Shown one piece after another: positions 816 through 15,157 of a stretch of DNA of 15,157 nucleotides. The notes beneath the pieces are model-generated. The model did not search any database and was not told where the DNA came from. It worked only from the letters and a program-made list of their open reading frames with translations. This stretch comes from an uncultured bacterium (GTDB lineage: Bacteria > Patescibacteriota > Dojkabacteria > CALFHW01): the NCBI GenBank assembly GCA_937876695.1, contig CALFHW010000072.1:1-15157 (forward strand). The letters are read 5' to 3'. The first letter of the stretch is position 1. Every line of letters starts with the position of its first letter. Made by a program: the position numbers and the translations under genes.

Positions 816-854
816 TTAGAATTAAGTATATTTTAGATTTTATTGCCCGCAAAA

Positions 855-1295: not shown

Positions 1296-1314
1296 GGAGG
1301 CTTCAGAATTCAAA

Positions 1315-1749
1315 CTAGACAGCCTCGGCTAATTCCCTCACACGATCTATGGCTTTTGGAATTCTTTCTAGAAAAGTCTCTTCTTGATTCTCTGGGACTT
1401 CGCTGTTGACGGTTAAGGTAGTGACCTCGCCCTCCTGCTCAAGAGTGTAGCTTTCGGACCCGCCGGTCCATTCGTCATCTCGCTCCTCCCGCCCACTTTG
1501 CTGGGTATCGCTCTGGTGTTTGAACAACACAAATTCATTTGGCGTGAGTTTCACTACCAAACTCGTCACCCCATAACCCGACACCGAGGAGATGAATTGC
1601 ACTTTTTCACCTTCTTCCATCTTGCCGGCCATGTATGTCCCCTCATCGATGAGTCCCGACCAATCTCTGAATGTGCGATCATCCCAGAGCACCTTCCAGA
1701 CGTGTTCTTTGGAGGCATTTATCTTAACTGAGAATTGGAGATTTTTCAT
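1315..1749 (-). CDS. SRPBCC (AHSA1/START-like) domain protein
   Basis: 144 residues, the usual length of a single-domain SRPBCC protein. It begins with the typical first strand and helix (LQFSVKINASKEHVWKVLWD), continues with FRDWSGLI, and has the central KMEEGEKVQF and C-terminal TTLTVNSEVPENQEETFLE followed by a long closing helix. The fold is a helix-grip cavity that binds hydrophobic ligands; AHSA1-like bacterial members have varied and mostly unknown ligands. No cofactor or catalytic motif can be assigned. It converges on the DUF1801 gene (19 bp gap) and diverges from the HD-domain gene across 64 bp. No Shine-Dalgarno sequence precedes the ATG. Confidence 0.8.
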   Translation of the reverse strand: MKNLQFSVKINASKEHVWKVLWDDRTFRDWSGLIDEGTYMAGKMEEGEKVQFISSVSGYGVTSLVVKLTPNEFVLFKHQSDTQQSGREERDDEWTGGSESYTLEQEGEVTTLTVNSEVPENQEETFLERIPKAIDRVRELAEAV

Positions 1750-1780
1750 AGTTGGTTGGCTAATAGATTAGTCGTATAGT

Positions 1781-1786
1781 TATAAT
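1781..1786 (+). promoter_or_regulatory. Candidate -10 element of the HD-DinB gene
   Basis: A perfect TATAAT lies in the 64-bp gap between two divergent genes, 27 bp before the ATG at 1814. The best -35 match, TTGGCT at 1756-1761, is 19 bp away, a longer spacing than usual. The leader would be about 20 nt with no Shine-Dalgarno sequence. Confidence 0.35.
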
Positions 1787-1813
1787 ATTAGTATAGATTT
1801 AGTAAAAGTAGTT

Positions 1814-2764: not shown

Positions 2765-2779
2765 GCTTGCCAGCTAATT

Positions 2780-3115
2780 TTATTCGATCTCCCTGATCAA
2801 TTCAGCCTTTAGCTGTGCTGCTGGCCTCATGCCTACGAAATCAGCGACTACTTTCCCACCTTTAAATAACTTCATATTAGGGATGCTGCTGATCTGGTAC
2901 TCCATAGCTAAGCTCTGGTTCTCCATTTCTTCGGTATTCACCTTTACGATTTTGACTTTGCCGTTTAGCTCGGTATCCGCAGCCAGGCTGTCCAGCTCTG
3001 GAGCCATCATTAAGCATGGCACGCACCAAGGCGCCCAGAAATCAACTAACACCGGAATATCTGAATCGATAACTTCGGATTTAAATTCGCTTTTGCTAAT
3101 TTGTTTGGCCTGCAT
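2780..3115 (-). CDS. Thioredoxin with a WCVPC active site
   Basis: 111 residues, the normal length of thioredoxin. Visible are VLVDFWAPWC with buried D25, the redox pair C31-V-P-C34, the cis-proline loop SIPN (P79) and the closing strand pair LFKGGKVV. The canonical WCGPC is altered to WCVPC, and the Lys after the second Cys is Leu, so redox potential or partner choice may differ. No signal peptide, so it acts in the cytoplasm as a disulfide (and potentially persulfide) reductase. It follows the CsoR/CstR-family repressor gene by 25 bp of AT-rich DNA with no Shine-Dalgarno sequence, so the two genes are very likely one operon under that repressor. Confidence 0.92.
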   Translation of the reverse strand: MQAKQISKSEFKSEVIDSDIPVLVDFWAPWCVPCLMMAPELDSLAADTELNGKVKIVKVNTEEMENQSLAMEYQISSIPNMKLFKGGKVVADFVGMRPAAQLKAELIREIE

Positions 3116-3140
3116 AATTATAATTAGTTAATAAATAAAT

Positions 3141-3386
3141 TTAAAATGCTGCATCTAAAACCGCGTTAATCCTGAGCTTTTTGACGTCAGGGCTTAGTTG
3201 CATCTGGGCGCATCGCTCTAACTCTACTTCGGCAATGTGCTTGCCTAGAGATTTAATCGAACCCATGACAGCCTTGAGCTGGGTTATAACCTGCACACAG
3301 TCGTACTCCTGACTGGCTATGGTCGAATTCAAAGCGTTTAGCTGGCCAATTGCACGGTTTATTCTTTTTTCGGTGTTGTTTTGCAT
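3141..3386 (-). CDS. CsoR/CstR-family (DUF156) transcriptional repressor
   Basis: 81 residues, all-helical, with the family pattern RINRAIGQLNAL at the N terminus, the first ligand Cys in YDCVQVITQLKAV (C30) and the second in EVELERC (C59), 29 residues apart as in CsoR and CstR. The histidine that completes the Cu(I) site in CsoR falls at residue 55, which is Glu here. Loss of that His is a trait of the persulfide-sensing CstR branch, so copper sensing is unlikely and thiol/persulfide sensing by C30-C59 is the better guess. The protein should bind DNA as a tetramer. A GC-core palindrome typical of this family lies just upstream, inside its own promoter, so autoregulation is expected. The thioredoxin gene lies downstream. 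Confidence 0.88.
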   Translation of the reverse strand: MQNNTEKRINRAIGQLNALNSTIASQEYDCVQVITQLKAVMGSIKSLGKHIAEVELERCAQMQLSPDVKKLRINAVLDAAF

Positions 3387-3392
3387 AAGTTA

Positions 3393-3422
3393 AATATACC
3401 CCAGGGGGTATATAAATGTCAA
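3393..3422 (-). promoter_or_regulatory. Promoter of the repressor-thioredoxin operon
   Basis: On the - strand a perfect -35 (TTGACA, 3422-3417) is followed after 18 bp by TATATT (3398-3393). The ATG starts 6 nt after the -10, so transcription should begin at or within a base or two of the start codon, giving a leaderless mRNA. Confidence 0.75.
3395..3412. promoter_or_regulatory. CsoR/CstR-type operator palindrome
   Basis: TATACCCCAGGGGGTATA: two perfect 8-bp arms (TATACCCC / GGGGTATA) around a 2-bp spacer, extendable by one more A-T pair on each side. The CCCC/GGGG core flanked by TA-rich ends is the known operator style of the CsoR/CstR family. It covers the spacer and the -10 of the repressor's own promoter, so bound repressor would block polymerase. 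The divergent lactate dehydrogenase gene starts 112 bp away. Confidence 0.82.
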
Positions 3423-3523
3423 GAATTATTCATTCCCAACAATACTAGTGACTAAAGACACATCCAGGGTGAAGTAAAAGTGCTAAATTGTAAATTAGGT
3501 ATTAATTATTATTCTTTATTTTC

Positions 3524-4453
3524 ATGAGTATTCAGCCTTCAGGTAGAGTAGTGGTGGTGGGTGCGGGGATGGTTGGTTCTTCAGTTGCCTATGCCATTCT
3601 CAATCAGCAAATTGCCAAAGAAATTTTGATTATAGATATCGCCGAGGAGTTAGTTCGGGCACATGTACTGGATATGCAAGATGCCTCGCAATTTACAAAT
3701 GGCGTCAGAGTCACAGCGGCTGGCTATTCTCACCTAGAAGATGGCGACGTAGTAATCGTCACCTGTGGCGCTGCTCAGAAAGAAGGCCAGACTCGAATTG
3801 ATCTACTTAAAATCAACGCCAGCATTATCCGCAGCGTGGTCGCAAGTATCAAGCAGACAGGTAAACAGGTTTATCTGCTCATGGTTACAAATCCAGTAGA
3901 TATTATGACCTACATCGCGGTTAAGGAAAGCGGCCTACCTAAAGGCATGGTGTTTGGCAGCGGTACTTACCTAGATACTGGCAGGCTCAAGATGGCGATT
4001 GAAGAGCAAATCGATGTCAACCACAACAGCATCCACGCTTATGTGATCGGCGAGCATGGCGATAGTTCATTTCCGCTGCTGAGCAGCGCTACCGTCTCGG
4101 GAGTGGGCTTAGAAACACTCATGAAAGTCGACGAACAGCTCTATGCCAGCCTAATGGAGAAGGTGCGCAATAAAGCCTACGAGATCATCAAAGGCAAAAA
4201 AGCCACCTATTTCGGTATCGGCAATGCTGTGGCAGTAATCGCTAGGGCAATTATCAGAGACGAACAGAGGGTTATGCCTTTAAGCGTGCTGCTAGAGGGC
4301 CAATATGGCCATAGTGATCTCTGCATAGGCGTGCCTAGCAAAATCGGGTCAGCAGGCTGCGAGGTAGTAGGTGAGGCTGGCTTTAACGCGCAAGAAAGCG
4401 AGTTATTTGAAAAATCAGCTAGTTTCCTAAAAGAAAATATTAAACTAATCTAA
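3524..4453 (+). CDS. ldh: L-lactate dehydrogenase
   Basis: 309 residues, full family length. The N-terminal Rossmann motif VVVVGAGMVGSSVAY and the acidic residue after strand 2 (IIDIAEE, D38) indicate NAD(H). The substrate loop reads GAAQKEGQTR: Q85 is the residue that distinguishes lactate from malate dehydrogenases (which have Arg), and R91 is the mobile catalytic Arg. N123 (VTNPVD), D151 and R154 (YLDTGR) and the proton-relay H178 (GEHGDSS) are all present. The enzyme reduces pyruvate to L-lactate to regenerate NAD+ in fermentation, in the cytoplasm. It heads a two-gene unit with an AEC permease 21 bp downstream. ATG at 3524 gives the expected N terminus; no Shine-Dalgarno sequence and no convincing promoter were found. 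Confidence 0.93.
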   Translation: MSIQPSGRVVVVGAGMVGSSVAYAILNQQIAKEILIIDIAEELVRAHVLDMQDASQFTNGVRVTAAGYSHLEDGDVVIVTCGAAQKEGQTRIDLLKINASIIRSVVASIKQTGKQVYLLMVTNPVDIMTYIAVKESGLPKGMVFGSGTYLDTGRLKMAIEEQIDVNHNSIHAYVIGEHGDSSFPLLSSATVSGVGLETLMKVDEQLYASLMEKVRNKAYEIIKGKKATYFGIGNAVAVIARAIIRDEQRVMPLSVLLEGQYGHSDLCIGVPSKIGSAGCEVVGEAGFNAQESELFEKSASFLKENIKLI

Positions 4454-4474
4454 CTTTTTGCAAAGTAAAAGGCT

Positions 4475-5392
4475 ATGCCAATTGAAATTGTATTATCTTT
4501 AATGCTGGTGATTTTAGCTGGGTTTGTAGTTCATAGACTGAAGATCTTGCCAGCAGAGACTACCATGGTGCTCAATAAGTTCTTAGTGAACATTTCATTT
4601 CCGTTAGTGATTTTTCTAGGCATTGCTAAGTCGGATCTGTCAAAAATCAATGACTTCTTGCCATTTGTGCTGATCAATTGCGCGATTATCTCTGCAGCCT
4701 ACGTCGTTGTTTTTCTAATAGGTAAGCTGCTAAAGCTAAACTATGCGCGCTCGGGAGCGCTTGTCTTGGGAGCAGTTACAGGAAATATCGCCTTTATGGG
4801 TTTCCCGGTGATCAAAGGCTTTTTTGGCACTGCACATGTGGAATTTGCCTACATGTACATCATAGTCTTCTCAATGACACTGGCATTTGTGGGGCTTACT
4901 TTGGTGGAACTTAGTCAAGATGATCAGAAAATCGATTTCAAAAAAATACTTAAGAAAGGCCTGTTAAATCCCCTGACAATGTCGGCGATTCTGGGGACTA
5001 TCGCGCTACTATTGCAGATTAAGTTCCCTGCGGTGGTGCTAGATCCGGCTACCTCTTTGTCACAGGTAACTACTCCTTTGGCGCTATTCTCGATCGGTGG
5101 ATTTATCTCGGCCAACTTCAAACTGCAGGAGATCAAACTGACTCTGCTAGCAGTGGTGATTAAGTTGGCGCTGCTGCCATTACTTGTGCTGGTAGTCTAT
5201 AGCCTCTTTAAGGGTGATGTGCAGACTGCTTTTACAGTCAGTGTTATGCAGGCCGCCATGCCAACGAGCCTCACCGAACTGGCGATTGCTAGCGAGTATA
5301 AACTGGACGGCAAAATCGCTTCATCGACAATCCTGCTGACCACGCTGCTATCGCCGCTTACGCTAGTTCTGTGGGCAACGGTTTTGAGGTAG
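4475..5392 (+). CDS. AEC-family (auxin efflux carrier-like) permease
   Basis: 305 residues, hydrophobic throughout, with about ten apparent membrane segments in two halves. Family landmarks are the N-terminal LVNISFPLVIF, the first discontinuous helix region GAVTGNIAFMGFPVI with its following FFG, and the C-terminal counterpart MQAAMPTSLTELAIASEY followed by a last helix with SPLTL. Bacterial AEC transporters move small organic acids such as malate and malonate, and some sit beside malolactic or lactate enzymes. Placed 21 bp after lactate dehydrogenase, this one probably moves lactate or a related acid across the cytoplasmic membrane; the substrate is inferred from context only. An AAAGG run sits just 2 bases before the ATG, too close for a normal ribosome binding site. 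Confidence 0.87.
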   Translation: MPIEIVLSLMLVILAGFVVHRLKILPAETTMVLNKFLVNISFPLVIFLGIAKSDLSKINDFLPFVLINCAIISAAYVVVFLIGKLLKLNYARSGALVLGAVTGNIAFMGFPVIKGFFGTAHVEFAYMYIIVFSMTLAFVGLTLVELSQDDQKIDFKKILKKGLLNPLTMSAILGTIALLLQIKFPAVVLDPATSLSQVTTPLALFSIGGFISANFKLQEIKLTLLAVVIKLALLPLLVLVVYSLFKGDVQTAFTVSVMQAAMPTSLTELAIASEYKLDGKIASSTILLTTLLSPLTLVLWATVLR

Positions 5393-5398
5393 AGCTAC

Positions 5399-5767
5399 TT
5401 AGGCGACCCAATTCCAGGCGTAATAGATAGTCATTACGTTGAAAACCAGGCTCACAACTAGCAGAAACCTATCGTAGGCTGAAGGGTAAGTGGGAATTGC
5501 TAGTAGGTTGAATATGAAGAAAACAGCTGCCAAGGCGATACTAGAAATGCGCGCAGCCTGCACCGGCAAAATCAGTGTGGATACAGCCATTAGGATAGGA
5601 ATTAGCATGAGCATCGAAATTCCTAAGTACACCAGCTTGTGAACTTTTTTGCCCTCGATCTCTCCGGCGGTAAATTCGCCCGCAAAGATCCTGAGCACAT
5701 CGCCAAGCAGATAAATCAGCATCAACGCTACCCACAGGCCAAAAATAATAATTCTAGTTTCTTCCAT
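5399..5767 (-). CDS. Four-helix membrane protein, DUF6326-like
   Basis: 122 residues with four predicted membrane spans (about residues 6-26, 45-68, 73-92 and 100-119). The arrangement, a first helix ending in IYLLGDVLRIF, a polar loop (GEIEGKKVH), a second helix with IPILMAVSTLILP, and a last helix ending in YYAWNW, resembles DUF6326 proteins. No catalytic residues or function are known. It converges on the AEC permease gene (6 bp gap) and diverges from the MazF-like gene over 50 bp in which the two promoters meet. A TAAACT hexamer lies exactly 6 nt before the ATG, so the mRNA is probably leaderless. Confidence 0.72.
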   Translation of the reverse strand: MEETRIIIFGLWVALMLIYLLGDVLRIFAGEFTAGEIEGKKVHKLVYLGISMLMLIPILMAVSTLILPVQAARISSIALAAVFFIFNLLAIPTYPSAYDRFLLVVSLVFNVMTIYYAWNWVA

Positions 5768-5773
5768 TACTTT

Positions 5774-5801
5774 AGTTTAATAAAAATTTAGTTAACTGCA
5801 A
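5774..5801 (-). promoter_or_regulatory. Promoter of the DUF6326-like gene
   Basis: On the - strand TTGCAG (5801-5796) and TAAACT (5779-5774) are separated by 16 bp; the ATG follows after 6 nt. The -35 sits next to the extended -10 of the divergent MazF-like gene, so the two promoters touch back to back. Confidence 0.5.
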
Positions 5802-5802
5802 A

Positions 5803-5811
5803 TGATATAAT
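5803..5811 (+). promoter_or_regulatory. Extended -10 promoter of the MazF-like gene
   Basis: TGATATAAT is a perfect extended -10 (TGn plus TATAAT at 5806-5811). A T-run of 6 nt separates it from the GTG start, so the transcript should begin at the start codon. No -35 is visible, which extended -10 promoters do not need. The same 9-mer recurs at 8739-8747. Confidence 0.65.
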
Positions 5812-5817
5812 TTTTTT

Positions 5818-6135
5818 GTGAAACTGCAAACTGGCAATATATATTGGATTAACTTAAAGGGCAGTGTCGCGCATCCGCATGTGGTAATTGCTCATGAAGG
5901 TGAAGCTGTGACTGTATGCGCACTGACCACCAATAAAAACAAGCAAGACATGCCTGGCAATATCCTACTCTCTGAAGGGGAAGGTGGGTTAAAAGAGCGC
6001 AGTATTGTCGACATTTCTAAAGTGTTTTCCATAGATAAATTAGAACTAGGTGAATATGTCGGCCAGCTCGCTGAGCACCGCTTGAGCGAAATCCAAGCCG
6101 GCATAGACTTTCTAGAAAAGTCGTTTTTGAACTAA
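5818..6135 (+). CDS. Solitary PemK/MazF-like protein
   Basis: 105 residues, family length. GNIYWINL is the first MazF strand, HPHVVI the second, VCALTTNK the conserved Thr strand (T38), PGNILLSEGEGGL the next hairpin, RSIVDISKVFSIDK the core strand and GQLAEHRLSEI the final helix. MazF toxins are sequence-specific endoribonucleases. The catalytic Arg before the Pro-Val-Val strand is His here (H19), as in a subgroup of PemK-like proteins with an HPHVVI motif, so RNase activity cannot be assumed. No antitoxin gene is next to it: the upstream neighbour is a divergent membrane protein and the downstream gene is convergent, overlapping by 4 bp. The GTG start lies 6 nt after a perfect -10, indicating a leaderless mRNA. 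Confidence 0.8.
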   Translation: MKLQTGNIYWINLKGSVAHPHVVIAHEGEAVTVCALTTNKNKQDMPGNILLSEGEGGLKERSIVDISKVFSIDKLELGEYVGQLAEHRLSEIQAGIDFLEKSFLN

Positions 6136-7094
6136 GACATCTCTATAACTACACTCCCTGTTTTGTGACCTGCCTCTACGTAGCGGTGCGCTTCGCGGAT
6201 CCGTTCTAGCTTATAACTGCGATCTATCACAGGCTTCAATTTACCCCTTTCCACAAGTTGTTTAAGAAATACCAGGTTTTCTGGGTTTTGTTGGAGCCCA
6301 GTAGCAGCAAAGATAGCTTTCTTGCCGCTAGATTTACGGGTCCTAATAGTCTGCAGCATAACCCCAATTTGCGGCACAGTCATCAGATAGACGCCTGTCT
6401 CCGTCAGAATATTCCTGCAATTTTTAAAGCTGCTATTGCCAACTACATCAAAGACTATGTCGTAAGTTTTATTTTGCTTAGTGAAATCAGTCTGGGTATA
6501 GTCAACAAATTCATCTGCGCCGAGTGTGTTGACTACTTCGAAGTTTTTACTACTGCAAACAGCTGTGACAAACGCCCCATAATACTTCGCTAGTTGAATC
6601 GCTGCTGAGCCGACACTGCCGGAGGCGCCATTTATCAATATTTTCTGGCCAGAAGTGATCTTTGCCTTATCTCTCAGGAAAACTAGTGCTGTCATAGGAC
6701 CATCGCAGATCGAGACAGCCTCGGCAAAGCTCGAGTTCTCAGGCATTATAGAAATCGTTCCGTTTTCAGGCAGGCAGATGTATTCGGCGTGCGCGCTAGA
6801 ATCATTGGCCGAAGCGCCCATCACCTTGTCACCCACCCTAAATTTTTTCACATCGTTACCGATAGCAACAACCTCCCCCGCAAGCTCAGTGCCTGGGATA
6901 TTCTTGGGCTTAAACATTCCTGCAAAAAATCTAACTATAAAAGGTTCAGCTTTACGAAACGCGATGTCAGCGGGACCAACTACTGCGGCATGGATTTTGA
7001 TTAGAATTTCGCCTGCAGCTGGCTTTGGAGTGGGCACTTCTACTACTTGCAACATTTCGACTGGACCGTAGGCTTTGACTTTAATTGCGCGCAT
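6132..7094 (-). CDS. Zinc-free medium-chain dehydrogenase/reductase (quinone oxidoreductase-like), second copy
   Basis: 320 residues. The N-terminal GroES-like domain (about 1-120) starts MRAIKVKAYGPVEMLQVVEV and includes GTELAGEVVAIG and a FRVGDKVMG turn. The Rossmann domain has ILINGASGSVGSAAIQLAKY for NAD(P) binding, then GADEFVDY, and ends with the typical AHRYVEAGHKTGSVVIEM. The catalytic and structural zinc cysteines of classical alcohol dehydrogenases are absent, so it belongs with the zinc-independent quinone oxidoreductase/enoyl reductase branch, which reduces activated C=C bonds or quinones with NAD(P)H. The substrate cannot be read. It is a clear paralogue of the gene just upstream (10 bp gap) and probably shares its transcript. 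No Shine-Dalgarno sequence is present. Confidence 0.85.
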   Translation of the reverse strand: MRAIKVKAYGPVEMLQVVEVPTPKPAAGEILIKIHAAVVGPADIAFRKAEPFIVRFFAGMFKPKNIPGTELAGEVVAIGNDVKKFRVGDKVMGASANDSSAHAEYICLPENGTISIMPENSSFAEAVSICDGPMTALVFLRDKAKITSGQKILINGASGSVGSAAIQLAKYYGAFVTAVCSSKNFEVVNTLGADEFVDYTQTDFTKQNKTYDIVFDVVGNSSFKNCRNILTETGVYLMTVPQIGVMLQTIRTRKSSGKKAIFAATGLQQNPENLVFLKQLVERGKLKPVIDRSYKLERIREAHRYVEAGHKTGSVVIEMS

Positions 7095-7104
7095 AGTTTG
7101 TTTA

Positions 7105-8076
7105 TTAACTAATATTAATAATCACGTTGCCTTTTTTGTGGCCCAGTTCCACATACCGATGAGCCTCGGCGATTTGTTCTAGCCTATAACTGCGGTCGAT
7201 GACCGGGGTAAATTTACCTTCACTTGCTATTTTCGCTAGCTGCTCTATATCTTCTAGTCTTTCAGGACCAGATCCCGAGATAATTTTGAACCCACTTTTC
7301 CAGCTTTGCAAAGGGGCGCTCGCCATTTCACCTAGACTGGCAATTACTAGACCCAATTTGCCGCCAGGCACTAAGGACCCGCGTGAACGCTGGAATGGGG
7401 CATTACCCACAGTGTCTAAGATAACGTCGTATTTTTGACCGTTCTGGCTGAAATCTTCTTTTTTGTAGTCGATTACATGATCAGCGCCAATAGATCTCAT
7501 TAAATCAGCATTTGGTCCGCTGCAAACAGCAGTCACCTCGGCCCCGTAGTATTTTGCTAATTGCACAGTCGCGCTGCCTACACCGCCTGATGCGCCGTTG
7601 ATAAGCACTTTTTGGCCTCGCTTAACGCCAGCCTTGCGCAAGAAATGCAGCGCGGTGGTGCCGCCAAATGACAATGCCGTCGCCTGCTCAAAGCTCAGAT
7701 TAGCAGGCTTGTGACAAACCAAGCCATTTTCAGGCATCGCCTTATACTCCGCATACCCGCCAAACTTCGCTCCTGGGAATGCAAATACCTCATCTCCAAC
7801 CTTAAACTTTTTAACTAATTTGCCAATTTCAACAACAGTTCCTGCAATCTCTGTACCTAGAATCTGCTGCCTAGGACCATTTATGCCAAACATAAGCCTA
7901 CCTGCAAATCCAAAACCTTTCGGGAGTTTGAGCCCTCTGGCTCTCCAATCGGCAGCAGTCACACTACTATTGCGAACCTTAATGAGCACTGCATCATCTT
8001 TAACAACTGGTAGAGGCAAATTAACAACTTTTAATACTTCAGGAGCTCCATAGGTTTCGTAAATTGCGGCTCTCAT
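7105..8076 (-). CDS. Zinc-free medium-chain dehydrogenase/reductase (quinone oxidoreductase-like), first copy
   Basis: About 323 residues from the preferred start. It begins MRAAIYETYGAPEVLKVVNL, has GTEIAGTVVEIG, the dinucleotide-binding VLINGASGGVGSATVQLAKY, GADHVIDY and the C-terminal AHRYVELGHKKGNVIINI. Zinc-ligand cysteines are missing, as in the neighbouring paralogue. An NAD(P)H-dependent reductase of quinones or enoyl-type substrates is expected. Two starts are possible. ATG at 8112 overlaps the preceding stop as ATGA and adds 12 residues unlike the family. ATG at 8076 gives the usual family N terminus and has an AGAGG seven bases upstream, the clearest Shine-Dalgarno in the window, so it is preferred. 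The gene is the middle member of a three-gene operon. Confidence 0.87.
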   Translation of the reverse strand: MRAAIYETYGAPEVLKVVNLPLPVVKDDAVLIKVRNSSVTAADWRARGLKLPKGFGFAGRLMFGINGPRQQILGTEIAGTVVEIGKLVKKFKVGDEVFAFPGAKFGGYAEYKAMPENGLVCHKPANLSFEQATALSFGGTTALHFLRKAGVKRGQKVLINGASGGVGSATVQLAKYYGAEVTAVCSGPNADLMRSIGADHVIDYKKEDFSQNGQKYDVILDTVGNAPFQRSRGSLVPGGKLGLVIASLGEMASAPLQSWKSGFKIISGSGPERLEDIEQLAKIASEGKFTPVIDRSYRLEQIAEAHRYVELGHKKGNVIINIS

Positions 8077-8083
8077 TACTTTT

Positions 8084-8088
8084 CCTCT
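8084..8088 (-). promoter_or_regulatory. Ribosome binding site of the first reductase gene
   Basis: AGAGG on the - strand, 7 nt before ATG at 8076. It decides between two in-frame starts and stands out because nearly every other gene here lacks such a sequence. Confidence 0.6.
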
Positions 8089-8108
8089 TCTGGGTGTATT
8101 TGAAGTCT

Positions 8109-8564
8109 TCATATTGAAAGTCCTTTTCGGTAAAAAGCTATTTTCGACACAATTCCCATAAGTTCAGAGGCAAATCCTGAGCCGATGATTATTACAAACA
8201 TGGTGGTAATCGATCCTGTGCTAGCAACTGCGAGCATCGCCCCCATAAATCCGATGATAAAAATAGCATAACTGTTCTGATTGGCACGAAGTTCTATCAT
8301 ATTGTCACGTTCGTCTTTGATCGTTTTCTCCTCTTTCCCAGTTACTATTCCTGTGGCTACAGTGACGAGTATGTACATTAGAATCTCAGCTACTATTCTG
8401 AGTGGGATCATAAGCAATATTGCAGATGCCCAGAAAGATAGCTCGCTGTCACTACCGCTGAAGGTTTCTGCTTGGTATCTAAAGTATAGAAAGGCAAAAT
8501 ATGGCAATGATACTAATAGCGTTGTCGCTAAGGAGATAAGGTTACTTTTTTCTTGTTCGGGCAT
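8109..8564 (-). CDS. Small four-helix membrane protein (DUF2178-like)
   Basis: About 151 residues. It starts MPEQEKSNLISLATTLLVSL, has two N-terminal membrane segments, a charged cytoplasmic stretch with KDERDNMIELRANQNSY, then two more membrane segments. The DERD-IELRA-N-SY pattern is shared with small membrane proteins of the DUF2178 type, whose role is unknown. ATG at 8591 would add nine residues but directly abuts a predicted -10 element (8597-8592), so it would lie at or before the transcription start. ATG at 8564 fits the family N terminus and the promoter better. The stop overlaps the upstream-most possible start of the reductase gene by four bases (ATGA), so this gene leads the operon with the two reductases. 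Confidence 0.68.
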   Translation of the reverse strand: MPEQEKSNLISLATTLLVSLPYFAFLYFRYQAETFSGSDSELSFWASAILLMIPLRIVAEILMYILVTVATGIVTGKEEKTIKDERDNMIELRANQNSYAIFIIGFMGAMLAVASTGSITTMFVIIIGSGFASELMGIVSKIAFYRKGLSI

Positions 8565-8591
8565 TTCGTGTCTGTAAAATATTATGTACAT

Positions 8592-8620
8592 ATAGTAACG
8601 TATACTTTACAAGATGTCAA
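8592..8620 (-). promoter_or_regulatory. Promoter of the membrane protein-reductase operon
   Basis: On the - strand a perfect TTGACA (8620-8615), a 17-bp spacer and TACTAT (8597-8592). Transcription would start near 8585, downstream of the ATG at 8591 and about 20 nt before the ATG at 8564. Confidence 0.6.
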
Positions 8621-8699
8621 ATAGTTACCTTTTCTTAAAAATAGCACACATTTATGTAATTAATTAATATAGATTCAGCAATATCTTATTGGTGACAAG

Positions 8700-8735
8700 A
8701 GAATATATTCTATTAGGGATATAGAGGATCTATAT
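8700..8735. promoter_or_regulatory. Two palindromes upstream of the terpene-synthase-like gene
   Basis: A perfect 12-bp palindrome AGAATATATTCT (8700-8711) is followed by an inverted repeat with 7-bp arms, ATATAGA (8719-8725) and TCTATAT (8729-8735), around GGA. They occupy the -35 region and upstream flank of the extended -10 at 8739-8747, the usual place for repressor or activator sites. The binding protein is unknown, and AT-rich DNA gives palindromes easily. Confidence 0.4.
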
Positions 8736-8738
8736 TTG

Positions 8739-8747
8739 TGATATAAT
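8739..8747 (+). promoter_or_regulatory. Extended -10 promoter of the terpene-synthase-like gene
   Basis: TGATATAAT, a perfect extended -10, identical to the one before the MazF-like gene. A start near 8754 gives a leader of about 48 nt to the ATG at 8802. Confidence 0.55.
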
Positions 8748-8801
8748 AAGATGTAAAATAAAGTTTAGTTTTAATAGTATTTGATAATAGGCCAATACCA
8801 G

Positions 8802-10067
8802 ATGTCAACGATAGATATGCCATCAAATGAAATGTCACCTAAACAACCAAGTTCGAAGGCCTTGCCCATAGAGGGTTATGTAGCAGAGAACCCCTTAGAC
8901 AAGATTCTGAAAGCGTTCCCCCGATGGACCAAGGAAGGCGTAAAAGAGGCATTTAAAATAGCTGGGCAGCTTGGGGGACTGTTTAAAGTTGAGGTTGTAG
9001 GCGGGGGACTATTGAGCCCAGAGGACCAGGCGGTTAATGACGCTGTGGAAGCCTCAGAAGGGAACATAGCAGCAGTCATCGGTTCATTCACGCAACCATA
9101 CCTATATGAGCAGGATTTATCTCCTGATCTAACAATTGCACTCGGCTACTTGCAGGGCCTGTTAGTAGATATCAATGACAACCTTTCTGAACGATTTACG
9201 GGCAGTGAGAATGACGACCAGGACACTGTAGAGCGACGATTTACACAAGGTATGGGGCTATATAGGAATCTGGTTGCTTTAGTTGCACCTGATGACTTTC
9301 ACGATAATTATCAAGATGCTGATAATAACTTCGCGCTTTCGGAAGAGCTCAGCATTAAATTAGATAGTGCTAGAGGGACCTTAGGTAAGGCGTTAGATAA
9401 TATTCTTGGCAATGGTGAAAATAGTCGCGCAGCGCGTAGGTTGATTGCGCAGACAATTATGAATTACGGCGCTTGTGTAGAAGGTATGCATATTCGTAAT
9501 GCCACCGAGAGAACCAAACTCTACCACCGTCTTGTTAACAACGAATCAGATTATGCCTCTAAAATGGGAATTGATTTCTCCTCCTTACCTAACTGGCTTA
9601 AAGGCAATCCCCATGGCTACATGTACTTTGGTAGTCCCATGCTGGCTTACGCAGTTATTGAAGCTGCAGCTAGTAATGAACTTGGACTTGCAGGTCATCT
9701 AAAAACTCTCCAGAAATACTATGAGCTCGTACCTTTCCTACATGTCTTCTTGGATGGAGTCACTGATTATGATGCAGACATTGATTCAGGCAACACTGCT
9801 CCCAACCTTTCCAGACTCATTGTTTCTGGAGAGGTATCTGGTTTTGCTCAGTCAGAAAGAGAAGATGAAACACAACCAAAAGCTAAAGCTTTCGTACGCT
9901 ATCTGCTGAAAGGAATTAAAGAGATGAAGGGAACAATCCATTTCCAGGTTATAGAGGACTTACTCAAGTTTTATCAACTGGAGCTTGCTAGAAATTCAGC
10001 AAACAGTGATAATAAGGATGCAAGGGATTTGTTAGATTATATATCTAAGCAGCTCGCGCGCATCTAA
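8802..10067 (+). CDS. Divergent DUF2600 (YtpB)-like protein, putative large terpene synthase
   Basis: 421 residues, mostly alpha-helical, soluble. Two motifs match, in the right order, the tetraprenyl-beta-curcumene synthase family (DUF2600): YLQGLLVDINDNLSERF (D126-N127-L128, R131) against the family's DYLDNLCDRS, and FLHVFLDGVTDYDAD (H314, D318, D322, D324, D326) against LHILLDYFIDQEED. The stretch before the second motif (SPMLAYAVIEAAA) also fits the family's small-residue helix. Family members are class I terpene synthases that ionise long prenyl diphosphates using Mg2+ held by acidic residues. The substrate here is unknown; no prenyltransferase is nearby. The N-terminal 30 residues are Ser/Pro rich and probably disordered. 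ATG at 8802 is preferred over an in-frame TTG at 8781. A histidine kinase gene follows after 16 bp. Assignment is from remembered motifs. Confidence 0.6.
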   Translation: MSTIDMPSNEMSPKQPSSKALPIEGYVAENPLDKILKAFPRWTKEGVKEAFKIAGQLGGLFKVEVVGGGLLSPEDQAVNDAVEASEGNIAAVIGSFTQPYLYEQDLSPDLTIALGYLQGLLVDINDNLSERFTGSENDDQDTVERRFTQGMGLYRNLVALVAPDDFHDNYQDADNNFALSEELSIKLDSARGTLGKALDNILGNGENSRAARRLIAQTIMNYGACVEGMHIRNATERTKLYHRLVNNESDYASKMGIDFSSLPNWLKGNPHGYMYFGSPMLAYAVIEAAASNELGLAGHLKTLQKYYELVPFLHVFLDGVTDYDADIDSGNTAPNLSRLIVSGEVSGFAQSEREDETQPKAKAFVRYLLKGIKEMKGTIHFQVIEDLLKFYQLELARNSANSDNKDARDLLDYISKQLARI

Positions 10068-10083
10068 ACTTTACTGGTAATGT

Positions 10084-11529
10084 ATGTTTCTATTCGGAAG
10101 AAGAAAGTCATCGTCAAACGCAGTTGTGCCTGTGGATGCAGCTGGTGAGAACACTTTATTACGCAGCCAACTCGCAAGGCTGAACATCCAGTTAGAAATT
10201 ATCTCCGAAATCAACGATAAGATCTTAGCTACACGCTCACTGGAGGAAGTATTGCAGTATTCCATTGACGCGATAGTAGATAAATTTGGGCTGCTGGGGG
10301 CAGTGTTGCTGCTCAAACGCGGTAAAGACCTGACAGCTAAGACAATTGCGGGAGGTGCCAAGGCAGAGCTGTTCACACGCACCATTGGCAAACCTATTTC
10401 GGTACTAAAAATCAAAATTAGCCCAGAAAGTCAGAACTTGGTAGTGCAGTCTGTAATTTCCAGGAAGTTAATTTATAATCGTGACCTAAGCGGCTACACC
10501 AAGGAAGTCTTGCCAGACTTCCTTGTTTCTCAAGCTGGCAAGGTAATTGGTATCAATATGAATGTCAGTATCCCTATTGTATTTGATGACGAGGTAATCG
10601 GTGCAGTCGTATTTGCCACCTCTAAAGATAGCTTTGAGGATCGTATCGCAGCACTACAGTTGCTTACTAAGAGCATCGGTATTTCTATTGTTAACTCCCA
10701 GTCATTTGCCGAAAAGGAGCGCCTAGTAGGTCAACTCAAGCTTAAAGTAGACGAGCTAGAGGAAATCGCCCGTAAAGAGAGAGATATGCTTGATATCCTA
10801 GCCCACGAACTGCGCACACCGATGAGCACTATTCGTAACTATTACGATGTGTTTGCTAAGGGCATCCAGCCCGTACCCGGCAAAATGGATCAGGAGCGAT
10901 TTGATAAGTATGACAACACCATCCGCGACAATATCAAGCGAGAGATCAACCTACTGGAGGCGATTTTGACTAGCGCGGTTATGGACAGTCACAAGGTTAA
11001 TTTGAGGGTGGAACAGGTGGACTTGAGTAAGGTGCTAGCTGTTGTTACCGACAACTTTAAACCAGAAGCAGAGAAAAAAGGTCTACAGTTAGTCAATCTA
11101 CAAGATATTGGCGCTGATCCGGCTGGCGTCGCGCAATCTACACATGTGCAGGGTGATCCGGAGCGTATTATTCAGCTGGTAGGCAATCTGGTTAGCAATG
11201 CAATTAAGTACACTCAGAGCGGCAAAATCAGCTTGAGCCTGAGAACTGCAGACGGCGTGATGGGCGTTAGCGTTGAGGATAGCGGCGAAGGGATTGCTCC
11301 AGAGGATATTCCAAATCTTGGCAAGAAGTTTTACCGTGTCAATCAGCATATCGCAGGTGTTAAGGAAGGATTCAAGAATTTTGCCAGACCAGGCGGAACT
11401 GGAATTGGCTTGTATGTGGCATTTGAGCTTGCAAAGCTGATGGGTGGGCGTGTCCAAGTAGAATCAGAATTAGGTAAAGGCAGCGTGTTCACTCTCTGGC
11501 TTCCACTAACTGCCCCGATTGCAGTTTAA
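10084..11529 (+). CDS. Soluble GAF-domain sensor histidine kinase
   Basis: 481 residues without membrane segments. A short coiled coil (about 23-50) leads to a GAF-like sensor domain (about 52-205), a linker helix, and the HisKA dimerisation domain with LAHELRTPMSTI (phospho-acceptor H241). The ATPase domain has the N box QLVGNLVSNAIKYT (N368, N372), G1 EDSGEGI, an F box (KKFYRV) and G2 GGTGIGLY. All catalytic elements are intact, so it should autophosphorylate in the cytoplasm in response to a soluble ligand or partner. A stretch of about 20 residues (IQPVPGKMDQERFDKYD) lengthens the HisKA helical hairpin. No response regulator is present in the window. It starts 16 bp after the terpene-synthase-like gene, so joint transcription is likely, and overlaps the convergent nuclease gene by 24 bp. 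Confidence 0.9.
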   Translation: MFLFGRRKSSSNAVVPVDAAGENTLLRSQLARLNIQLEIISEINDKILATRSLEEVLQYSIDAIVDKFGLLGAVLLLKRGKDLTAKTIAGGAKAELFTRTIGKPISVLKIKISPESQNLVVQSVISRKLIYNRDLSGYTKEVLPDFLVSQAGKVIGINMNVSIPIVFDDEVIGAVVFATSKDSFEDRIAALQLLTKSIGISIVNSQSFAEKERLVGQLKLKVDELEEIARKERDMLDILAHELRTPMSTIRNYYDVFAKGIQPVPGKMDQERFDKYDNTIRDNIKREINLLEAILTSAVMDSHKVNLRVEQVDLSKVLAVVTDNFKPEAEKKGLQLVNLQDIGADPAGVAQSTHVQGDPERIIQLVGNLVSNAIKYTQSGKISLSLRTADGVMGVSVEDSGEGIAPEDIPNLGKKFYRVNQHIAGVKEGFKNFARPGGTGIGLYVAFELAKLMGGRVQVESELGKGSVFTLWLPLTAPIAV

Positions 11530-12150
11530 TGGATTCCACAGCCCCGCAGCCTGCTGGCGAGCCATACTTTCGGCCTGTTTGTATTGCTGCTGGTATTTAT
11601 AGGGATTTCTATAGGTGTATTCAAACGCGTAGCCTGTGCGGATAAGCTCCAATCCCAGATCGATTGGTGTCCCTTGCTGTACTTGACCCTTAGGCACACC
11701 TTCTGTAAACATATATGCCAATGTTCGCCCATAGCGGTCGAGTCTGTCCTGGCTGGGGTCGTATTCGAGGTAGACTGATTTGCCTTTGACGAGATCCTCT
11801 AACTCTCGCTTGGCCTCCAGGGCAAAGCACTCGGCGCCTCCCTGACTGGACCTTAGCTCAGGGGTATCGATGCCAATAATTCTGACAGTACCGAGTCCCT
11901 CCAACGCTATGGTATCACCGTCGATTACGCGAGTTACTTGGTAGCTTTCTGTATTAATCAGCGGATTGACACTCATTAGTTCCTCAGCAATTACATCTGA
12001 TTGTCCAGCCACTTGAGTAGCTTGCGAGCGATCCCAGAAGCTTTTGCCAATTATTGCGGATCCTACCACCAGGGATGAAAGTAGAACTGTCACTGCTGTT
12101 ATCCAGAGTATTGTCACCAGCCATAATTTGCGATTACTGCTTTTTTGCAT
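11506..12150 (-). CDS. Membrane-anchored thermonuclease (staphylococcal nuclease family)
   Basis: 214 residues. A basic N terminus and one hydrophobic segment (about residues 9-34) form an uncleaved anchor or signal, followed by a linker and the SNase domain from about residue 68. Catalytic residues are all present: D77 and D79 in VIDGDT, R90 and E98 in VRIIGIDTPE, and R142 in YGRTLAYMF; the AGLW near the C terminus is also typical. The enzyme should cut DNA and RNA with Ca2+ outside the cell, a plausible way to scavenge nucleotides in an organism with limited synthesis. ATG at 12150 is chosen over an in-frame TTG at 12168, because that TTG lies upstream of a perfect -10 (12162-12157). It diverges from the MarR gene. 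Confidence 0.9.
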   Translation of the reverse strand: MQKSSNRKLWLVTILWITAVTVLLSSLVVGSAIIGKSFWDRSQATQVAGQSDVIAEELMSVNPLINTESYQVTRVIDGDTIALEGLGTVRIIGIDTPELRSSQGGAECFALEAKRELEDLVKGKSVYLEYDPSQDRLDRYGRTLAYMFTEGVPKGQVQQGTPIDLGLELIRTGYAFEYTYRNPYKYQQQYKQAESMARQQAAGLWNPLNCNRGS

Positions 12151-12156
12151 AACCAA

Positions 12157-12162
12157 ATTATA
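12157..12162 (-). promoter_or_regulatory. -10 element of the thermonuclease gene
   Basis: A perfect TATAAT on the - strand, 6 nt before the ATG at 12150, so a leaderless transcript is predicted. No good -35 is visible at the usual distance. Confidence 0.55.
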
Positions 12163-12202
12163 ATCCAATCTGAAATGGGAATGCGAGAATTTACAAATAT
12201 AG

Positions 12203-12231
12203 TTGACAAGTAAACCGTTTACAACTAAACT
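12203..12231 (+). promoter_or_regulatory. MarR-operon promoter with overlapping operator
   Basis: A perfect -35 TTGACA (12203-12208), 17-bp spacer and TAAACT (12226-12231), 9 nt before the ATG. The spacer holds a perfect inverted repeat GTAAAC-C-GTTTAC (12210-12222). Five further base pairs match in the outer flanks (12201-12206 against 12226-12231). The region can also be read as two 13-bp direct repeats (TTGACAAGTAAAC / TTTACAACTAAAC) 15 bp apart. The site is placed for autorepression by MarR. Confidence 0.65.
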
Positions 12232-12240
12232 AATTTACAT

Positions 12241-12672
12241 ATGGCCAACTTTATAACTCATAAAATCAATAATTTAACCGCGCGGATGAATAGTGAGGGC
12301 GGGGAGATTCTACAAAGGGAATTCCAGCTGACCTACTCGCAGTTTGAGGTTCTAAGCGTCGTTCATGGCGTTGGGAGCGTCTCACAGCAAGTGATTGCTG
12401 AATATAGCCAATACAGCAAAGGTCTGATTAGTAGGGTTATTTTTGCATTAGTCGCAAACGACTTGGTAACTGTCAGTGACCAAGTCGGCGATAGAAGAGT
12501 AAAAATCATCACTCTCACAGCCAAAGGAAAAGATAGATTTGAGCGGGCTTCTGATTATCTAGAACGAGCATTCCGAGAAAAAGTGTTATTAGGCCAGGGA
12601 CAGAAAATATCTGCAGCAGAGATACAGACCTTCGAAAAAGTTTTGGATAAATTATTAGCTAAATTTTCATGA
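12241..12672 (+). CDS. MarR-family transcriptional regulator
   Basis: 143 residues, family length. The winged helix-turn-helix spans about residues 30-98: LTYSQFEVLSVV, then QQVIAEYSQYSKGLISRVIFAL as the recognition region, and the wing DQVGDRRVKIITLTAKG with the conserved D84-R85-R86. Helices at both ends form the dimer interface. There are no cysteines, so oxidant sensing through thiols is excluded; a small-molecule ligand is more likely. Its stop overlaps the start of the serine hydrolase gene as ATGA, so the hydrolase is the obvious target. An inverted repeat within its own promoter suggests autoregulation. There is no room for a leader with a ribosome binding site. Confidence 0.88.
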   Translation: MANFITHKINNLTARMNSEGGEILQREFQLTYSQFEVLSVVHGVGSVSQQVIAEYSQYSKGLISRVIFALVANDLVTVSDQVGDRRVKIITLTAKGKDRFERASDYLERAFREKVLLGQGQKISAAEIQTFEKVLDKLLAKFS

Positions 12673-13736
12673 AGACGGAGATAACTTCGAATCAGTTAGC
12701 TAAGTTAGAGAAGACTTTTCAGAGTGCTAGCAGAGGCAAAAACATACATGGCGGCTGTCTGCGCATTGAAAATGGCAAGGGTGAGGTGGTATTTGAGGGG
12801 CAGGCGGGCAATTTTACCCAGCAAAGCAGGTATTTTATCGCTAGCACCACCAAGATCTACACTACCTCTATTATAATGAAGCTGCGCAGCGAAGGGCTAT
12901 TGGAATTGGATGACCAGTTGTCTAAGTTTTATAAGGACAGTGAAATTACCGGTATCAGTGTAATTGGTGGGGTGGACTTTTCGCAGCAGATCACCGTGAG
13001 GCAATTATTAGCACATACTTCAGGTCTGGCGGATTACTTTAGCGGCAAAAATGGCGGCAGTAAGAGTGCAGAGGAGGACTTGATGGCAGGCAAAGACATG
13101 CCTTGGACTTTAGAATCGGCACTAACTATGGTGAGAAGCTTAAAGCCTAAGTTCAAGCCTGGAGCTCCCGGCAAGGCGTATTATTCAGATACCAACTATC
13201 AGCTTTTAGGCGGGATAATCGAGCGTTTGCGGGGCAAAAAGATCGGAGAAGTTTTTCAGCAAGAGATTTTTGGGCCGTTGGGTCTTAAAAACACCTATTT
13301 GTTTGAGGTAGGTCAGCAGGATTCTGCACTGATTCCGCTTTATTACCGCGAAAATTCTCTGTATATTCCACAAGCGATGGCTTCATTTGGCCCTGATGGC
13401 GGAATCGTTTCCAATAGTCAAGACTCGGCCAGATTCTTAAGAGCCTTCTTCCAAGGTGAGATTTTCCCTGAGGAGTACCTGTTCGAAATGACCGCCGAGT
13501 ATAATCGCATCTTCTTCCCTCTACGTTACGGAGTGGGACTGATGATGTTCCAGCTCCCAGCGATTTTCACCTTGTTTAGAAAGTTCCCAGAGCTTTTAGG
13601 GCACTCAGGTTTAAGCGGCGCCTTCTCTTTCTATGCGCCAAAGCTAGATCTGTATTTCACTGGCAGTCTCAACCAAATCGCCGCCAGGAGCGCATCATAC
13701 CAGATGTTAGTGAAGTGTATGCAGGCGCTGAGCTAA
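12669..13736 (+). CDS. Serine hydrolase of the beta-lactamase / penicillin-binding protein fold
   Basis: 355 residues. The catalytic triad elements of the class C beta-lactamase/EstB superfamily are visible: S59-T-T-K62 in FIASTTKIYTT, Y172 in YYSDTNYQLLGG, and GHSG (312-315) on the last strand in the place of KTG. LLAHTSGLADYF and FGPDGGIVSN are further family landmarks. Such proteins act as carboxypeptidases, beta-lactamases, esterases or amide hydrolases through an acyl-enzyme; substrate cannot be read from sequence. Unusually for the fold there is no signal peptide or membrane anchor, which favours a cytoplasmic esterase-like activity over cell-wall work. It overlaps the MarR gene by 4 bp and is presumably controlled by it. 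Confidence 0.87.
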   Translation: MKTEITSNQLAKLEKTFQSASRGKNIHGGCLRIENGKGEVVFEGQAGNFTQQSRYFIASTTKIYTTSIIMKLRSEGLLELDDQLSKFYKDSEITGISVIGGVDFSQQITVRQLLAHTSGLADYFSGKNGGSKSAEEDLMAGKDMPWTLESALTMVRSLKPKFKPGAPGKAYYSDTNYQLLGGIIERLRGKKIGEVFQQEIFGPLGLKNTYLFEVGQQDSALIPLYYRENSLYIPQAMASFGPDGGIVSNSQDSARFLRAFFQGEIFPEEYLFEMTAEYNRIFFPLRYGVGLMMFQLPAIFTLFRKFPELLGHSGLSGAFSFYAPKLDLYFTGSLNQIAARSASYQMLVKCMQALS

Positions 13737-13775
13737 CGGGTTGGAAAGCACGAAAGTTAGGAATGTATTGAAATA

Positions 13776-13805
13776 TTGGTCGAGGCATGCTCCCAGGTGT
13801 AGAAT
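13776..13805 (+). promoter_or_regulatory. Candidate promoter of the tRNA-Pro gene
   Basis: TTGGTC (13776-13781) and TAGAAT (13800-13805) with an 18-bp spacer, ending 11 bp before the mature tRNA 5' end. Confidence 0.4.
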
Positions 13806-13816
13806 TTAGCTAGAAG

Positions 13817-13890
13817 CGGAGGGTAGTTCAATTGGCTAGAATGCGCGCTTCGGGTGCGTGTGGTTGCAGGTTCGAGTCCTGTTCCTCCGA
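13817..13890 (+). tRNA. tRNA-Pro (anticodon CGG)
   Basis: A 74-nt cloverleaf folds by eye. The acceptor stem CGGAGGG pairs with TCCTCCG (one G-U), with discriminator A. D stem GTTC/GAAT, anticodon stem CGCGC/GCGTG around loop TTCGGGT (anticodon CGG, reads CCG), five-base variable loop, T stem GCAGG/CCTGT with loop TTCGAGT. The C1-G72 pair and A73 are the identity elements of bacterial tRNA-Pro. The 3' CCA is not encoded and must be added by a nucleotidyltransferase. Confidence 0.95.
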
Positions 13891-13907
13891 AAGAAATTAA
13901 TTTTTAG

Positions 13908-13913
13908 TATACT
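13908..13913 (+). promoter_or_regulatory. -10 element of the YecM-like gene
   Basis: TATACT exactly 6 nt before the ATG at 13920. A -35 at the usual distance would fall inside the tRNA 3' end and has no match, so readthrough from the tRNA promoter is an alternative. Confidence 0.4.
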
Positions 13914-13919
13914 CAAAAC

Positions 13920-14399
13920 ATGATTATCGATACATCGGTGCAGTTTCTGGATAGGTTTTTTGCTGAGCTTGCCAAAACTGGAATAGACTTATCTAAACTT
14001 GAGTTCGATCATCTCGCCTATCAAGCTTCCTCGCCAGCTGAATACGAAAGTCTCAAGCTAGAGCTGGCTGGGATGGGAAGGCTCGGCAAGGAGCCGACAC
14101 TAAACGGCAGGAGGATTGCTTCCTATATATTAGCTGAGAAAATTACCTACAAAAGCTATGAAATCGAGATAATTGAGCTGCTAGAGCCTGAACCCGGTAG
14201 TCAGCATAAATCAGACTGGCAGCATATCGAGTTTACCATTGCAGATGAGATTGAGACGCTGCTTAGCAATTATCCTGAATTAGACTGGGATCAGGCCGCG
14301 CTGCATAGAGACCTTTTTCCGCTTTTGAAGTTGAAATTAGCTAATATGTGGGTTAAATTCCCTCGAACAGGACTGAGAGAGCAATTAGGACTTATTTGA
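13920..14399 (+). CDS. YecM-like protein of the VOC superfamily
   Basis: 159 residues. The order LEFDHLAYQASSPAEYESLK, GRRIASYIL, EIEIIELLEPEPGS and WQHIEFTI follows the YecM family pattern (DHxxYR, NGRpI, ELPxPK, HVEFV) of the vicinal oxygen chelate fold. Candidate metal ligands in the usual VOC places are H31 in DHLAY, the acidic residues of IIELLEPEPG and H102 or E104 in QHIEF. The reaction of YecM proteins is not established. It begins 29 bp after the tRNA gene, and its 3' end overlaps the convergent ClbS/DfsB gene by 8 bp. The start codon lies 6 nt after a -10-like TATACT. Confidence 0.78.
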   Translation: MIIDTSVQFLDRFFAELAKTGIDLSKLEFDHLAYQASSPAEYESLKLELAGMGRLGKEPTLNGRRIASYILAEKITYKSYEIEIIELLEPEPGSQHKSDWQHIEFTIADEIETLLSNYPELDWDQAALHRDLFPLLKLKLANMWVKFPRTGLREQLGLI

Positions 14400-14883
14400 A
14401 CTTCTTCTTGATTAAGTCTGCTGCCCATTTGTAATGGCTGGCTGTGCAGGATCCGATATATGCGATCAATGCGTTTTTGTTCATCCAAGCGTAGAGACCT
14501 GTCTTCAGCAGTTCATCTTCTGTTAGTTCTTCAAATAGTTTTATAATACCCGCTTCATTTTTACTGAAAAAAGCTTGAGCCTGCTCTAACGAATAGTCCT
14601 TGTATGCCAGGTATATCTCCTGATTGAGTTCAGGAAGCTGATTCCACTTATACTTTGCATGAGGAACTGCCGTAGCCTTGCCGGCTAACCCATCTGCATA
14701 CCAGCACAAAACCATTTCCTGCCATTTAGCTAAGTGGCAAATGATGTCCTTGGTAGTCCACTCTCCAGTGACCAACTCAGTTGTTTGTAACTTCGGGTCA
14801 ACGTTCGCCAATAATTTGTCGAGTTTTGCTTTTTCGGTCGTAATCTCTTCAGCAAGTTGCTGTTTGGATTTATATTTTGACAT
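14392..14883 (-). CDS. ClbS/DfsB-family four-helix bundle protein
   Basis: 163 residues, family length. Characteristic stretches are GEWTTKDIICHLAKWQEMVL followed by WYADGLAG, the loop KYKWNQLPELNQEIYLAYKD, and the closing LIAYIGSCTASHYKWAADLI. The family belongs to the DinB-like fold. ClbS of colibactin producers is a resistance protein that opens the cyclopropane warhead, but most relatives have no known substrate, so detoxification is only a suggestion. The conserved His residues in ICHLAKW and SHYKW sit where DinB proteins bind metal. Its N-terminal helix motif (WTTKDIICHLAKW) resembles that in the second domain of the HD protein at 1814-2764 (WTAKDILGHITFW). TAAACT 6 nt before the ATG suggests a leaderless mRNA. 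Confidence 0.88.
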   Translation of the reverse strand: MSKYKSKQQLAEEITTEKAKLDKLLANVDPKLQTTELVTGEWTTKDIICHLAKWQEMVLCWYADGLAGKATAVPHAKYKWNQLPELNQEIYLAYKDYSLEQAQAFFSKNEAGIIKLFEELTEDELLKTGLYAWMNKNALIAYIGSCTASHYKWAADLIKKKFK

Positions 14884-14889
14884 TAATTA

Positions 14890-14918
14890 AGTTTACAAGG
14901 CAAATTAGAAAAGTGCAA
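14890..14918 (-). promoter_or_regulatory. Promoter of the ClbS/DfsB-family gene
   Basis: On the - strand TTGCAC (14918-14913), 17-bp spacer and TAAACT (14895-14890), with the ATG 6 nt later. The same TTGCA and TAAACT pair precedes the DUF6326-like gene. Confidence 0.48.
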
Positions 14919-14978
14919 AGTCAGGTGGCAAAGCATCTAATTAATTGTGATTGTTGGTTGTCAGGTAGGTCACTGTAG

Positions 14979-14984
14979 TATAAT
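14979..14984 (+). promoter_or_regulatory. -10 element before the right-edge gene
   Basis: A perfect TATAAT in the 123-bp gap after the divergent ClbS/DfsB gene. TTGTCA at 14958-14963 is a possible -35 but is only 15 bp away. A start near 14991 would leave 16 to 31 nt before the possible ATGs. Confidence 0.4.
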
Positions 14985-15006
14985 CTCGCATAGAAATTTA
15001 TATTTA

Positions 15007-15157
15007 ATGTGTATGATAAGTATGGGTGATATTCAGCCCGAGAATCCAAACCTGACTAGTAGAGTCATATTCCAGGACGAACTAACAAAAATGGTTGAGG
15101 ACTCTAAAAATTCAATCACACTAGATTTCCGCTATGGGGGATACATGAATAATTGGC
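15007..15157 (+). CDS. Unrecognised protein, N-terminal fragment
   Basis: An open frame runs off the right edge. Three in-frame ATGs (15007, 15013, 15022) are possible starts; the last gives MGDIQPENPNLTSRVIFQDE, which looks most like a natural N terminus. The visible part continues with a short acidic helix (LTKMVEDSKNS) and ITLDFRYGGYMNNW. No family is recognised and no signal peptide is seen. The TATAAT at 14979-14984 supports a real gene here. Confidence 0.5.
   Translation, partial: MCMISMGDIQPENPNLTSRVIFQDELTKMVEDSKNSITLDFRYGGYMNNW

Follow-up and report, generated by a model that had tools for sequence, protein, structure and literature searches.

Beside the class I terpene synthases with canonical motifs, five subclasses, IB, IC, ID, IE and IF, are distinguished in a paper on these enzymes, according to which non-canonical members escape sequence-based mining and are sought through predicted structures (PMC11234867). 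Class IB corresponds to DUF2600 (PF10776), and its named members include YtpB from Bacillus subtilis and BalTS from Alkalihalobacillus alcalophilus (PDB 5yo8, 6loo). Two papers assign the catalytic aspartates of BalTS to the motifs DYLDNLXD and DY(F,L,W)IDXXED (PMC11234867, PMC7839719); these residues are D85, D88, D92, D249, D253 and D257. Here, these enzymes are compared with the product of a gene at positions 8802-10067 on the forward strand of a stretch of 15,157 nucleotides (contig CALFHW010000072.1, positions 1 to 15,157) that is referred to as the window. Very probably, the encoded protein is a rare and divergent relative of the enzymes that convert prenyl diphosphates into terpenes, one in which the metal-binding acids of those enzymes have been kept while divergence hides it from standard protein-family searches. 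Taken together, the sequence comparisons and structural models are best read as indicating a class I terpene synthase that is nearest to class IB and lies outside DUF2600 as now defined.

The open reading frame (ORF) is a real, conserved gene, with a stop-free frame of 421 codons followed by a stop and a translated product of 421 amino acids. An in-frame TTG at 8781 provides an alternative start upstream of the ATG at 8802, and the ATG is favored because the relative P0005 begins with MLKIDM, compared with MSTIDM in the window protein (P0001). A search of approximately 5.8 billion proteins, in which scoring was limited to the 7998 candidates with the most words in common so that weaker relatives may exist, yielded three long relatives with 61-72% identity and 87-98% coverage, and one partial relative. 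The long ones are P0002 (72% identity, 95% of the query covered), P0003 (61%, 98%) and P0004 (65%, 87%), which together with P0001 make up alignment A2, while P0005 is 65% identical over 46% of the query and divergent beyond. P0002 to P0005 are each found on one contig of 4-12 kb, and P0001 is present on two contigs, the longest of 374 kb. A profile search with A2 at E <= 1 recovered the five known members and nothing further among roughly 8000 scored candidates. No model in Pfam, NCBIfam or PHROGs matches the family, and P0001 has 0 Pfam families at E <= 10; the lone Pfam match of any member, Stealth_CR3 (E 0.21, one of four members), was dismissed as chance. No relative was confirmed among the 43 and 53 pattern stretches from two scans of GTDB genome contigs or the 62 from one scan of IMG/VR viral contigs, and tblastn at E <= 1 gave no match in phages and plasmids. 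In the PDB, the family profile gave no match, and two weak sequence matches to unrelated molecules (E 0.21 and 1.4) were likewise attributed to chance. Two of the relatives have irregular sequences. P0005 is near-identical to P0002 up to approximately residue 205 and then continues into a short unrelated tail, probably owing to a frameshift, a pseudogene or an assembly error. P0003 appears mosaic: in alignment columns 301-420 it is close to P0002 (54/60 and 58/60 identical), its first block agrees at 8/38 positions, and its second block is nearer to P0004 (43/60) than to P0002 (29/58), a pattern that looks like recombination or chimeric assembly.

The likeness to class IB is concentrated in two acidic motifs, which were already part of the preliminary description of this DNA. 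Its placement of DNLSERF at residues 126-132 and HVFLDGVTDYDAD at 314-326 agrees with the translation. The first motif is present as claimed, with its true start earlier, at D123 (D123-x-x-D126-N-L-S-E130). In the second, H314, D318, D322 and D326 are conserved, whereas the proposed middle acid, D324, is replaced by K, K and L in the relatives. Both motifs occur in four of the five family members, the window protein counted. The first takes the form D[IF][NS]D[NH]LSE in 5/5 members and the second DGV[TA]DxxxD in all four that reach the region; P0005 extends over the first three acids and retains them, diverges after approximately residue 200 and lacks the second motif. The six positions D123, D126, E130, D318, D322 and D326 are D or E throughout the four rows of A2. 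As 196 of the 368 ungapped A2 columns are invariant, more than half, the fact that family members share these acids carries little weight on its own. Among 400,000 residue shuffles of P0001, the pair D..D.L.[DE] and H...D...D...D, in this order and 100-250 residues apart, arose in five, and in 325 if the histidine was not required, rates that are optimistic since the patterns were picked after both families had been seen. The only DDxx[DE] of P0001, DDFHD at 164-168, was also considered and is an unlikely metal site, as it reads TDFPD in P0004 and lies beyond the helix next after the first motif.

Comparison with BalTS (P0006 in the alignments) places the six acids on its catalytic residues. 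For this purpose, DUF2600 was sampled from the best 120 of 2665 members, 68 of which entered alignment A3 and 41 alignment A4, so that distant members are unrepresented; two plasmid records of DUF2600 members were left out of the alignments, and two scans of viral contigs contained none. Unguided MAFFT in four modes, using sequences only, paired all six acids with the BalTS aspartates, as did A4, and acids thus stand at every catalytic Asp position of class IB. When the family alignment was shuffled (100 times by single columns and 100 times in ten-column blocks), all six were paired in 0/200 cases, with a maximum of five, and the reversed family alignment paired two. The spacing of the acids inside each motif is identical in both proteins, and H245 of BalTS stands at the place of H314, one of several corresponding positions (BalTS/window protein: Y166/Y222, H174/H230, G208-S209/G277-S278, Y237/Y306, H245/H314, H299/H380 and Y310/Y391). 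The window protein is 13-18% identical to the 41 DUF2600 rows of A4, and D92 of BalTS is replaced by E130. Also not retained are the FHC.GG block, the tyrosine of either DY motif and residues K173, Q242, G243 and E256. In addition, the window family carries an N-terminal extension and two conserved inserts of 13 residues each, which may form a lid over the active site. The coordinates of these and the neighboring elements are compiled in Table 1.

Table 1. Sequence features of the candidate synthase gene and its flanks (window coordinates; A2 and A4 are the alignments described in the text).
Feature	Position	Strand	Remarks
Inverted repeat ATATAGA-GGA-TCTATAT	8719-8735	.	Perfect 7-3-7; upstream of synthase gene; read from sequence
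Extended -10-like sequence TGATATAAT	8739-8747		Directly after inverted repeat, upstream of synthase gene
First acidic motif, D123-I-N-D126-N-L-S-E130	9168-9191	+	Counterpart of DYLDNLXD, BalTS D85, D88, D92; C-terminal end of helix 108-131
Helix segment Y222-H230 (YGACVEGMH)	9465-9491	+	Y222 and H230 equal BalTS Y166 and H174 (MAFFT); both invariant in 4 A2 rows
Insert 264-276 (NWLKGNPHGYMYF) relative to BalTS	9591-9629	+	13 residues, family-specific, just before G277-S278; 10/13 invariant in A2 (A4)
Second acidic motif, H314-xxx-D318-xxx-D322-xxx-D326	9741-9779	+	Corresponds to H245 plus DY(F,L,W)IDXXED; BalTS D249, D253, D257
Insert 331-343 (NTAPNLSRLIVSG) relative to BalTS	9792-9830	+	13 residues, family-specific, shortly past second motif; 8/13 invariant in A2 (A4)
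GAF-HisKA-HATPase sensor histidine kinase gene	10084-11529	+	16 nt past synthase stop

Structure prediction against BalTS had been named beforehand as a test that could refute the proposal, and it returned models with a class I terpene synthase fold. In both models the alpha-helical fold was recognized with BalTS as the top match of both aligners, although the second aligner merely re-scores the matches of the first and model 2 was built with DUF2600 rows, so that these are not four independent results. The predicted likeness to BalTS extends over residues 36-418 of the window protein. The initial proposal of a divergent DUF2600/YtpB-like terpene synthase is therefore supported with respect to the class I fold and the BalTS match, and falls short with respect to strict DUF2600 membership, given that there is no Pfam match and the strict motifs are absent.

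Several observations set the family apart from DUF2600 or limit the comparison. Neither P0001 nor the four members match DUF2600, and the PF10776 cut-off is not reached. DYLDNLXD, DY(F,L,W)IDXXED and FHCxGG are found in 0/5 family members, compared with 66, 67 and all 68 of the 68 DUF2600 rows in A3, respectively, and the sole agreement in the FHCxGG block is G58 of BalTS with G94 of the window protein. Profile-profile similarity to DUF2600 is marginal: hhalign, comparing the family (effective number of sequences, Neff, 1.5) with the 68 DUF2600 sequences, gave a local match of 103 columns (score 28.1, P 0.007, probability 5%) that pairs YYELVPFLHVFLDGVTDYDAD with the DUF2600 consensus YFPWVQGLHILLDYFIDQEED. 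This score was reached by 4/1000 shuffles (column 0/500, block 4/500) and by 0/121 in a smaller run, and the global mode scored 1.2, under the shuffle mean. BLASTP of P0001 against BalTS recovered the same stretch (E 0.34), so that the two methods agree in position, each being weak alone. The 23 shared near-invariant residues are not significant, as this number was reached by 9/100 block and 6/100 column shuffles. Since the pairing of all six acids was never reproduced by shuffling and the total of shared invariant residues lies within the shuffle range, the similarity signal resides in the acids and not in overall resemblance. Concerning the structures, model 1, built without DUF2600 rows, is of low confidence, and model 2, whose confidence rose strongly upon their addition, is partly circular and has receptors further down its list of Foldseek matches.

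The marginal profile score, the low-confidence first model, the count of shared invariant residues and the receptor matches could also be accounted for by an unrelated helical bundle with two acidic motifs that match by chance. Such an accidental resemblance is very unlikely, considering that BalTS ranked first in model 1 without any DUF2600 input, that controls did not reproduce the six-of-six pairing, that so few residue shuffles contained both motifs and that, in an uncontrolled comparison, the DUF2600 rows strongly raised model confidence. A true class I isoprenoid fold may instead belong to a prenyltransferase that elongates chains or transfers prenyl groups to an acceptor. This fold is also that of E-type prenyl diphosphate synthases and N-prenyltransferases, which are among the structural matches, and the second motif of P0002-P0004 carries DD..D (DDKPD, DDKVD, DDLPD), resembling the second of the Asp-rich motifs in enzymes that elongate prenyl chains. 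However, class IB cyclases are ranked first in both models, the first motif contains no DDxx[DE], and both motifs are spaced as in class IB, which makes a prenyltransferase unlikely. Finally, the protein could have the fold but no longer act as an enzyme, or could have been repurposed, and bind a prenyl lipid, perhaps in partnership with the adjoining GAF histidine kinase, whose gene lies 16 nt away on the same strand; the very few homologs and the altered strict motifs are in line with this. Yet only 29 of the 53 acidic columns of P0001 are acidic in all four A2 rows, so that some loss at the metal site would be expected under relaxed selection, whereas all six metal-site positions are D or E in every row, and a dead protein is accordingly considered quite unlikely.

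The window protein is thus probably a class I terpene synthase that is soluble and active. In such an enzyme, helices from approximately residue 36 to 418 would form the alpha-helical terpene synthase fold; D123, D126 and E130 would sit where one helix ends, D318, D322 and D326 where another ends, and these acids may bind Mg2+. The metal ions would hold the diphosphate group of the substrate, an all-trans prenyl diphosphate, and ionize it, and the resulting allyl cation could be cyclized or deprotonated within the helical cavity to give a terpene hydrocarbon or alcohol. By analogy, a long substrate (C20-C35) is a first guess, because the nearest known relatives are the large-terpene synthases of class IB (DUF2600: YtpB, BalTS). 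The analysis itself shows the conserved gene, the agreement in motif spacing, the predicted fold and the ranking of fold matches, whereas metal binding, catalysis, substrate length, product and biological role are inferred.

Regarding the other classes, the family resembles canonical class I enzymes, represented by selinadiene synthase (4okm) and CyS (7y50), in its predicted alpha-helical fold, which rests on a low-confidence model and a partly circular one. In contrast to these enzymes, the window protein lacks the DDXXD of the first metal site at the end of helix D, and the NSE/DTE motif is present in 0/5 members under strict and loose patterns. Classes ID, IE and IF likewise have a class I fold and are invisible to sequence-based searching, as described in PMC11234867. 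According to that description, class ID uses D(N/D), ND and RXXKD motifs, whereas the motifs of the window protein have the class IB-type spacing. A far-reaching and improbable proposal would regard the five proteins as a new class I subclass, with a letter after IB-IF, defined by D..D.LSE, HxxxDGVxDxxxD and two inserts. In this proposal, the synthase gene would share a transcription unit with that of the GAF histidine kinase, a cytosolic protein, and the bacterium, unable to make long-chain isoprenoids itself, would cyclize prenyl diphosphates drawn from a host cell and sense the product.

The family was seen through its two motifs and yet lies outside three family libraries, which provides a motif rule for finding further members. 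The six acids allow a clear mutational test of the window protein, and the family might bridge class IB and other class I synthases. Should the host belong to the Patescibacteria, as the preliminary description conjectured, the gene would also bear on how isoprenoid-poor bacteria obtain and use prenyl diphosphates. In freshwater genomes of the candidate phyla radiation (CPR), C5 isoprenoid synthesis is reported for Gracilibacteria and only the C10-C20 steps for other classes in one survey (PMC9166423), and another paper notes a terpene cluster from a Saccharibacteria genome, in passages that do not give the type of enzyme (PMC7298704). Judged by eye, the 22 bases ahead of each of 16 listed gene starts in the window contain no strong Shine-Dalgarno sequence, an absence that makes a typical Firmicute less likely but names no phylum. 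Searched against plasmids, four window proteins have best matches that stay below 60% identity and are scattered over phyla. Codon usage of the synthase gene falls within the window range (mean ln relative usage -1.149 vs -1.220 to -0.970 for the 16 genes), and none of these genes has a lower third-position GC content than its 0.39.

The candidate synthase and histidine kinase genes are possibly co-transcribed, and a terminator scan listed no terminator-like site between them. A weak promoter-like site at 9985-10013 (9/12) falls within the last part of the synthase gene; the scan that listed it yielded no more sites than its shuffles. Upstream, the inverted repeat and the -10-like sequence might constitute a promoter or operator; they lie in an AT-rich region and do not appear in the promoter-scan list. 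No Pfam match to isoprenoid or terpene families was obtained in the 20 neighboring ORFs scanned, and no gene useful as a phylogenetic marker was noticed. On the opposite strand upstream lie a small membrane-protein-like ORF without a family match and two adjoining zinc-type alcohol dehydrogenase (quinone oxidoreductase-like) genes (6132-8112, reverse strand), apparently tandem paralogs. A PemK/MazF-like protein is encoded at 5818-6135 (forward strand), with no obvious antitoxin gene adjoining, although antitoxins were not searched for. Rfam and ARAGORN annotated tRNA-Pro only in the window. A single ORF at 1814-2764 (forward strand) fuses a SpoT-like HD domain (HD_4) to a C-terminal DinB-like stretch that scores slightly below the Pfam cut-off.
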